Source: Akkermansiaceae bacterium (GTDB lineage Bacteria > Verrucomicrobiota > Verrucomicrobiia > Verrucomicrobiales > Akkermansiaceae). Taken from it: a stretch of 64,000 nucleotides of DNA. Below are positions 21,901-23,660 of this stretch, piece after piece. The position numbers and the translations under genes were made by a program. How positions within the stretch are numbered: the first letter of the stretch is position 1; each line of letters starts with the position of its first letter. The DNA lies in the NCBI GenBank assembly GCA_013041925.1, contig JABDRB010000013.1:124001-188000 (forward strand), in the 5' to 3' direction. The notes beneath the pieces are model-generated. The model did not search any database and had not been told where the DNA came from. It saw only the letters and a program-made list of their open reading frames with translations.

Positions 21901-23131
21901 GGATCCACCATGGGACCTCATCGTGGTCGGTGGCGGTGCCGCCGGATTTTTTGCCGCGATCACCTATGCTGAAAAAGCGGGTCCTGGATGCCGGGTGCTC
22001 ATTCTTGAAAAATCCCCGCAGGTTCTCGGCAAGGTGAAGATCTCAGGTGGGGGGCGATGCAACGTCACCCACGCATGCTTCGACCCGAAACAACTCACGC
22101 GTTATTACCCGCGCGGCCACAAGTCACTGATCGGACCATTCCACCGGTGGGGAGCGTCCGATACCGTCGATTGGTTTTGCCAGCGTGGTGTGCTGCTTAA
22201 AACCGAACCCGACGGACGCATGTTTCCGGTGACCGATGACTCCCAGACGATCATCGACTGCCTCACGCGTTCCGCCAGCAGCGCTGGCGTGATCGTGCAC
22301 ACCTCCACTGGAGTGCCATCCGTCATCGCCACGGAGACAAGCGACGCTCGGTTTCAGATCACCACAGAAAAAGGCAAACATTTGCTAGCCCGCTCACTCC
22401 TCCTTGCCACCGGCGGCACTCGCCTCGCCGCAGGCGCAAAATTAGCCCAATCGCTCGGTCACCCACTCGTGCCGAACGTCCCGTCGCTTTTTGCGTTCAA
22501 GATCACCGACCCCCGGATCAACGACTTACCTGGCATCTCACTGACCCATACACACATTTCCGTCAAGGGAACCCAACTCACATCAGACGGACCCTTGCTC
22601 ATCACCCACCACGGCCTGAGCGGACCCGCCGTCCTCAAACTCTCCGCATGGGGCGCACGTGAATTGCACAACCAGCAATACCATTTCACCCTCACCATCA
22701 ACTGGCTTCCCAAACTGGATGTAGCCACCATCCTGAGGGAAACCCGCCAAAGTTGGGGCAAGCGCCGCGTGTGCGGTCGCGCTCCCTTTGAATCATTCCC
22801 CAAACGACTCTGGGAACGACTCTGCATCGCAGCGGGCGTCGAGGACGACGGCACATGGTCGCAACTCGACAAGTCCACCACGACCCGACTGCTTACCGAG
22901 CTCATATCAGGAAATTTTCAAGTCACGGGAAAGAGCCTCAACAAAGACGAGTTTGTCACCTGCGGTGGAGTTCAACTCAGCGACGTCCAGCTCAAAACGA
23001 TGGAGAGCAAAATCCAGTCGGGTCTCTATTTTGCGGGTGAGATATTGGATATCGATGGTGTCACCGGCGGCTTCAATTTTCAGAATGCGTGGACGACTGG
23101 CTTCTTAGCGGGCACCGCGGTCAGCACCTGA
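21893..23131 (+). CDS. HI0933/YhiN-family FAD-dependent oxidoreductase
   Basis: This flavoprotein of about 412 residues is of the HI0933 type. The dinucleotide-binding GGGAAGFFAA is near the N-terminus, followed by LEKSPQVLGKVKISGGGRCNVTH, the most recognisable family segment. Further on are RMFPVTDDSQ, LLATGG, HHGLSGPAVL, TCGGVQL and the C-terminal FAGEILDIDGVTGGFNFQ. All expected blocks are present. The ATG at 21893 places the FAD loop at the normal distance from the start. The biochemical role of this family is poorly known. It probably shares a transcript with the small gene it overlaps. Confidence 0.92.
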   Translation: MPKDPPWDLIVVGGGAAGFFAAITYAEKAGPGCRVLILEKSPQVLGKVKISGGGRCNVTHACFDPKQLTRYYPRGHKSLIGPFHRWGASDTVDWFCQRGVLLKTEPDGRMFPVTDDSQTIIDCLTRSASSAGVIVHTSTGVPSVIATETSDARFQITTEKGKHLLARSLLLATGGTRLAAGAKLAQSLGHPLVPNVPSLFAFKITDPRINDLPGISLTHTHISVKGTQLTSDGPLLITHHGLSGPAVLKLSAWGARELHNQQYHFTLTINWLPKLDVATILRETRQSWGKRRVCGRAPFESFPKRLWERLCIAAGVEDDGTWSQLDKSTTTRLLTELISGNFQVTGKSLNKDEFVTCGGVQLSDVQLKTMESKIQSGLYFAGEILDIDGVTGGFNFQNAWTTGFLAGTAVST

Positions 23132-23255: not shown

Positions 23256-23597
23256 ATGAAACGATCCTATCAAGCACTCACATTCTGCGCGTTAACGGCT
23301 CTCCCCTTAGGAAGCTCCGTCGCTAGTCAACCGACTGCCCCCCGAGGAGCATCCACCGAATTCAAAGCGGAAGCTCCGGCCCAAAAAACCATCAACTTAA
23401 CCATCACGGGCATGCGCTGAGGCGTTGGCTGCGTAGCCAAAGTGCGGTCCGCACTCGTAGGTGTTGAAGGTGTTTCCAATGCCGTTGTCAGTATGCCCGA
23501 CAAGGCAGTGGTCACGGCCAAAAGCAGCGTTAGCCATGATGCCCTGATCAAAGCGGTCAAAGCCGCTGGCTATGGCGCATCTGTAGCTGCCGATTAA
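23256..23597 (+). CDS. candidate selenoprotein: secreted MerP-like HMA-domain protein with TGA-encoded Sec55
   Basis: Translating through the TGA at 23418-23420 gives 113 residues. The first part is a signal peptide (SYQALTFCALTALPLGSSVA), followed by a short linker and one heavy-metal-associated domain. The metal motif reads GMR-U-GVG-C, followed by VAKVRSALVGVEGV and DALIKAVKAAGYGA, a complete HMA fold. TGA replaces the first metal-binding cysteine, and the C-x3-C spacing resembles the C-P-V-G-C variant of this family. The frame before and after is undamaged, a SECIS-like hairpin follows the TGA, and a strong terminator closes the gene. The protein would work in the periplasm, binding a thiophilic or selenophilic metal, possibly mercury or copper. 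A Cys-to-stop pseudogene is the main alternative. The gene stands alone, convergent with ftsH. Confidence 0.72.
23421..23460 (+). promoter_or_regulatory. putative bacterial SECIS element after the in-frame TGA
   Basis: AGTGCG (23441-23446) and CGCACT (23450-23455) form a perfect 6-bp stem with a GTC loop. The loop opens with G, 26 bases after the TGA, inside the 16-37 range expected for bacterial SECIS, and the apical bases read GGUC as in the E. coli fdhF element from memory. An outer CTGCG/CGTAG pairing (23429-23433 with 23456-23460) could extend it past a 5' bulge. No folding energy was computed. Confidence 0.6.
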
Positions 23598-23631
23598 ACC
23601 CGACCAAAAAGAACCCGACTCAAATGTCTAA

Positions 23632-23660
23632 GGCACGGCTGCGTCGCCGTGCCTTTTTTT
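23632..23660 (+). terminator. intrinsic terminator after the HMA gene
   Basis: GGCACGGC and GCCGTGCC make a perfect 8-bp stem around a 6-base loop, followed directly by seven T. It lies 35 bases after the TAA of the candidate selenoprotein and shows that this short gene is a real transcription unit. On the other strand there is no comparable T-run for ftsH. Confidence 0.92.

Follow-up and report, generated by a model that had tools for sequence, protein, structure and literature searches.

The gene at 23256–23597 of the window (the whole 64,000-nucleotide stretch of an Akkermansiaceae genome analysed here) is predicted, with a probability of roughly 0.9, to encode a small exported selenoprotein, in which an in-frame UGA would specify selenocysteine (Sec) at the first ligand position of an HMA domain. 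Sequence data strongly support the selenoprotein reading, and from the same data we infer both the insertion of Sec at the UGA and the export of the product. As the first-pass annotation had described, the frame is intact on both sides of a single TGA: between the ATG and the TAA, codon 55 is the sole in-frame stop (Table 1). The N-terminus looks, by eye, like the signal peptide that had been proposed, and a crude motif rule finds a lipobox-like motif in the signal-peptide region at 43 of 89 related sites. A hairpin with a T tail follows the gene; earlier called a strong terminator, it is no more than suggestive, because shuffled sequence yields an expected 0.8 sites of this kind in the same scan. 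A promoter scan found none of the sigma-70 type.

Table 1. Features of the predicted selenoprotein gene and its flank, in window coordinates.
Feature	Position	Strand	Remarks
Predicted selenoprotein gene	23256..23597	+	113 codons (residues), ATG at 23256, Sec at codon 55, TAA stop at 23595–23597
Probable signal peptide	23256..23327	+	Judged by eye; N-terminus MKRSYQALTFCALTALPLGSSVAS
HMA domain, residues 43–110	23382..23585	+	Ferredoxin-like, strand-helix-strand-strand-helix-strand; Pfam, AlphaFold2 model, 1osd match
UGA predicted to be read as Sec (U55), first ligand position	23418..23420	+	TGA in 30/30 codon-aligned rows; TGT in L231
Partner cysteine C59 of U-x3-C	23430..23432	+	Invariant in alignments A1 (30 rows) and A4 (53 rows), whose rows were mostly picked by a motif or pattern requiring it
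SECIS-like hairpin AGTGCG-GTC-CGCACT	23441..23455	+	Apical loop 26 nt past the UGA
Terminator-like hairpin, then T run	23630..23655	+	Consensus match only

The HMA domain that had been noted beyond the TGA is recovered by both profile and structure prediction. With C put for U, the protein scores 37.1 bits against the Pfam HMA model (PF00403; cut-off 24.8) over residues 49–106. An AlphaFold2 model was built from alignment A4, which holds 53 sequences: about nine loci were dropped and the 89 sites then reduced by identity to 51, to which the window and L140 were added. Its mean pLDDT is 80.3 and its pTM 0.61, and pLDDT averaged by blocks is 88–97 over residues 41–110. In this model helix 1 spans residues 57–68 with C59 in its first turn, and U55 is placed in the first loop. 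Among PDB entries it matches oxidised MerP best (1osd; target TM-score 0.91, rmsd 1.1), with copper-ATPase domains next, and a profile search also matches MerP 1afi (E 1e-17).

The first-pass annotation had placed the TGA at the first metal-binding cysteine and had suggested asking whether homologues carry Cys in that column, a negative answer counting as refutation. They do: in the profile alignments printed, those to copper-ATPase HMA domains, Sec aligns with the first of the two CxxC cysteines, and a one-residue gap opens before the second. The swap is not a plain one, however, since the HMA motif CxxC (or UxxC) is absent and the protein has U-x3-C, with one residue inserted. Cys forms also occur. 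A close planctomycete orthologue (L231) has TGT, a reading that rests on one assembly, where L234 has TGA, the two being identical in 297 of 354 alignment columns; L231 retains the hairpin letters and its genome has selA. A more distant homologue in the phylum of the window (L071/L140, genome G375) has C-x3-C, and its genome gives no selA match. Paralogues with deviant motifs were also found and left out of the counts: L128 has UxxC, L129 has Sec without the partner Cys, L135 has CU without the second Cys and L247 has UxxxU. Separately, proteins that carry a pair of HMA domains and have ordinary Cys motifs (L052, in the window's own genome at C22:61173-61559; L131–L133, L136, L137 and L141) make up a Cys companion family within the same bacterial family.

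Just 3′ of the UGA lies a hairpin whose geometry is that of a bacterial SECIS element. The bSECIS model as given in PMC13188914 has a loop of 3–9 nt, a stem of 4–16 bp, a G in the first two loop positions and a spacing of 16–37 nt; the hairpin in the window has a 3-nt loop (GTC), 6 bp and a spacing of 26 nt. We compared 39 distinct post-TGA segments, drawn from 45 sites (the 31 genes of the dN/dS analysis, L038 contributing two sites, and 13 sites from 12 named loci) and including L134, whose motif is UHNVC. In each of the 39 the loop begins 26 nt past the UGA with G as its first letter, and the stem reads [A/C/G]GTGC[A/G]-G[G/T]N-[C/T]GCACT, barring a GCGC/GCGC version in L034 and L039. Codon choice in the stem is locked, in a comparison that counts related sequences as independent: Val is GTG in 37/37 cases (19% elsewhere in the same genes), Gln is CAG in 30/30 (41%), Arg is CGG in 9/9 (29%) and Ala is GCA in 37/39 (23%), the two exceptions being altered on both sides of the stem together. 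Among the 25 segments used for a covariation test, covariation was 0.227, against 0.146 in shuffles, with 0 of 500 shuffles reaching it and slid structures giving at most 0.102. Standard pairs filled 95.4% of pair cells in these 25 segments, compared with 91.6% in shuffles, whereas two of the five measures taken, pairs changed on both sides (27/500 shuffles) and further pair types (263/500), did not stand out.

The published limit for a bSECIS element is −7.5 kcal/mol or lower (as stated in PMC13188914), and the isolated 19-nt hairpin of the window reaches −7.0 kcal/mol; over the 89 sites the mean is −7.9, with a range of −10.8 to −5.6. In a 45-nt fold the hairpin, when imposed, gives −13.8, whereas the free fold adopts a different structure at −14.5, preferred by 0.7 kcal/mol. 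The 53-nt free fold also prefers another structure (z 0.24), and the 100-nt fold contains the hairpin (z −2.16).

A search for the Sec machinery had been proposed along with the selenoprotein reading, which a lack of selB and tRNA-Sec would have refuted; selA, selB, selD and tRNA-Sec are all present in the genome of the window (3.28 Mb, completeness 98.07). The tRNA-Sec scores 56.4 bits (gathering threshold 47) and ARAGORN assigns it the anticodon TCA. SelB scores 324 bits (cut-off 242) and covers model positions 2–579 of 581, SelA 504 bits (cut-off 268) and SelD 370 bits (cut-off 125). The selD gene (L066, around 1531) has an in-frame TGA of its own (CAGU), with which SelD becomes this genome's second predicted selenoprotein. 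Of 14 well-known control genomes, tRNA-Sec passed its cut-off in 5, SelB in 2, SelD in 2 and SelA in 1; SelA is thus the cleanest marker and was used from here on.

One-TGA orthologues were found by protein search in 41 of 195 sampled genomes of the bacterial family, after exclusion of G099 and G163, where the TGA ends a CxxC gene. Matches in genus g3 (L092 and L095), together with L087, were likewise rejected as Sec genes, being CxxC genes that the TGA simply terminates. We read 38 of the 41 carriers (all but G140, G144 and G173), and every one has G[M/L]xU-x3-C with the partner Cys kept, a Cys that the motif filters asked for. selA, called at E up to 1e-60, was detected in 70 of the 195 genomes: in 36 of the 41 carriers and in 34 of the 154 others (Fisher p ~1e-14, with kinship ignored and related genomes counted as independent). 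The five carriers with no selA match (G006, G010, G109, G126 and G161) are fragmented assemblies of 180–610 contigs, and G006 and G010 have SelB over its cut-off. The gene itself is patchy, as 4 of 14 genomes of the window's genus (G002, G008, G012 and G013) have selA and lack the gene.

Selection on the protein extends across the UGA. In 30 aligned relatives, 29–73% identical to the window's protein, U55 and C59 are invariant, the U55 column being TGA throughout; the rows of A1 and A4 were mostly picked by a motif or pattern requiring C59. For 11 chosen pairs, dN/dS was computable for 21 of the 22 values on the two sides of the TGA; 19 of these lie at 0.06–0.37 and the remaining two at 0.47 and 0.66. 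As judged from these sequences, purifying selection acts on both sides of the TGA.

The gene is not confined to this bacterial family. We scanned 84,980 species genomes with the pattern TGA-N9-TGY-N8-RGTGCRGKYYGCACT, which has a single match in the window; 100 shuffles of the window gave none. Of the 85 stretches that matched, 83 encode this HMA protein; the other two, from Nereida (L181) and an Acidobacteria bin (L229), do not encode it. By title, 52 of the 83 belong to Verrucomicrobiota, 20 to Planctomycetota and 3 to Candidatus Poribacteria, and 8 carry no phylum; several stretches have their genome in common with another. The first-pass annotation, which took the gene as a genomic example in Verrucomicrobiota, underestimated its breadth. 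Because many stretches come from organisms that are also in the family search, the pattern set and the family set are not independent, and because the pattern demands the TGA, the Cys and the stem, the scan is uninformative on how often these three vary. selA is present in 24 of 25 tested carrier genomes of the scan (G560 being without it) and in 13 of a second set of 17 genomes; the Nereida genome with the chance match has none. Within that second set, G838 has a U-x3-C gene without the usual hairpin letters and gives no selA match.

Two Sec domains are predicted within a single frame in L163 and L177, and adjacent copies of the U-x3-C gene occur in L159, L176, L185 and L203. Matches to the pattern are incomplete in L147 and L148, which run off the stretch, and in L162, whose frame leaves the family past its middle. 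A tree of 82 sites plus the window groups them by phylum and is poorly resolved. A search of 387 genomes of the phylum gave matches in 64, and the 12 loci read there added no U-x3-C gene from beyond the window's family. In 294 planctomycete genomes there were matches in 171, many with long open frames; 20 of these loci were fetched and viewed through a motif filter that shows part of them. A candidate on viral contigs (L230) is not an HMA protein.

These data bear on two other ways of reading the UGA. If the TGA were a true stop, through mutation or sequencing error, the sequence beyond it would be a relic, and TGA is indeed a normal stop in this genome, as the gene upstream ends with one at 23129–23131. 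However, the same TGA recurs in the 41 family genomes and the 83 named stretches, two sets that share some organisms, the part downstream is under purifying selection and the codons of the hairpin are locked, and a pseudogene or an error is extremely improbable. Decoding of UGA as another amino acid, by reassignment or suppression, would equally leave the frame open, as would any code in which TGA is a residue. That alternative is very improbable too: the neighbouring gene is terminated by TGA, selA tracks the U-x3-C gene, a SECIS-like hairpin stands at the expected distance, and the close orthologue L231 has TGT in place of TGA. In the selenoprotein reading, SelB, guided by the hairpin, would bring Sec-tRNA to codon 55, and translation would therefore run on into the HMA domain.

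What such a protein does has to be deduced from its fold and ligands, because its genomic context gives no function. When neighbours were clustered and read by eye across 20 regions holding the gene (the window included, and L031 lying inside L057) and the 83 named loci, no widely shared neighbour emerged, the largest cluster covering 11 of the 83 named loci; nor was any widely shared neighbour found that points to a metal. Within the genus of the window, the gene is preceded by one for a flavoprotein and often followed by ftsH, and neighbour names, read by eye, include a leuB-like gene. Judging from the modelled fold and the ligands, we consider binding of a soft metal a likelier role than redox chemistry, with moderate confidence. 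The selenolate of U55 and the thiolate of C59 would sit in the loop where HMA proteins grip soft metals, and, working beyond the cytoplasm, the protein would most likely scavenge or shuttle a soft thiophilic ion (Cu+, Hg2+, Ag+ or Cd2+) that it binds there. The protein could instead be a genuine selenoprotein that acts through a selenenyl-sulfide cycle between U55 and C59, as a periplasmic reductase or peroxidase on an HMA fold. We regard this as possible but rather unlikely. Its nearest structure is the oxidised form of MerP, and the paralogues L129 and L135 keep Sec where the partner Cys is gone, both of which speak for redox; the partner Cys is nevertheless present in the 38 family genomes read, though the motif filters required it. 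To our knowledge HMA domains include no established redox enzymes, which counts against a redox role. That the majority of characterised selenoproteins pair a redox motif with a thioredoxin-like fold favours such a role, and that Sec may serve as a metal ligand in others speaks against it (both as put in PMC13188914).

That the protein works more specifically with MerT, as a true MerP does in mercury resistance, is improbable. The earlier label 'MerP-like' holds for the fold, and MerP supplies the top structural match and a strong profile match. However, the protein scores 37.7 bits against the MerP equivalog model (TIGR02052), far under its cut-off of 92.55, no mer neighbours of the gene were seen among the clustered neighbours read by eye, and no neighbour is common to more than 11 of the 83 named loci. 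Extending the soft-metal role to the whole family is, in our estimate, about an even bet: in Verrucomicrobiota, Planctomycetota and Poribacteria, these would be exported proteins that use Sec as a dedicated soft-metal ligand (U-x3-C) on the HMA fold, for affinity rather than redox catalysis, with Sec/Cys exchange ongoing between close species.

Several known proteins resemble the one described here. Like MerP (TIGR02052; 1osd, 1afi), it would be a single exported HMA domain of the same predicted fold, with U at the first Cys of CxxC; unlike MerP, it would have Sec for Cys and has one extra residue between the ligands. A MerP-named selenoprotein is already in print, as the first-pass annotation had indicated: the GOS survey table lists a 'Mercuric transport protein MerP' selenoprotein with 2 sequences from 1 sample and 0 Cys homologues (PMC2398784), an entry that gives no motif. 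The protein matched 15 NCBIfam models and falls under the cut-off in all of them. The top score is to a CopZ-type metallochaperone (NF047957, CopZ_AFE_1862; 48.0 bits, cut-off 85), from which the N-terminal export signal and Sec predicted here set it apart. The HMA-type UxxU metal-binding (seleno)protein NF041115 gives 41.7 bits (cut-off 95) and differs in its motif, which is UxxU by its name and in PMC13188914 and UxxxC here. NF045683, a MerT/CopZ fusion-like heavy metal transport selenoprotein named as such by NCBI, has an HMA-like tail and gives 34.6 bits (cut-off 375); our protein, a lone exported domain by prediction, covers only positions 151–231 of its 235. Finally, neither PF00403 nor cd00371 nor UxxxC occurs in the main text of the 2026 selenoprotein inventory (PMC13188914). 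Since NCBIfam and GOS name such proteins, the scores lie below the cut-offs, the spacing differs and the inventory's main text has no such entry, we file the protein, on its sequence, as a variant of the known HMA-type selenoproteins with a different spacing.

Redox proteins make up most of the characterised bacterial selenoproteins, and here Sec is predicted in a fold that usually holds soft metals. As Sec has already been suggested as a metal ligand in other families (by PMC13188914), the new points are the combination of fold and spacing, the probable export and the breadth over three phyla. As it matches no NCBIfam model over the cut-off, annotation may well cut the protein short or overlook it. 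The TGA/TGT orthologue pair L234/L231 forms a natural Sec-to-Cys comparison. Carriers of the U-x3-C arrangement are known mostly from environmental genomes; the genome record of Rubritalea profundi SAORIC-165 contains both a U-x3-C gene and selA. One copy (L225), from a record that bears the title Akkermansia muciniphila isolate MaH-09apr19-44, is almost the same in the tree as L186 from a Lake Baikal Pedosphaera; its genome (G576) is about 7.3 Mb with selA, and the record is apparently mistitled or the bin a mixture.
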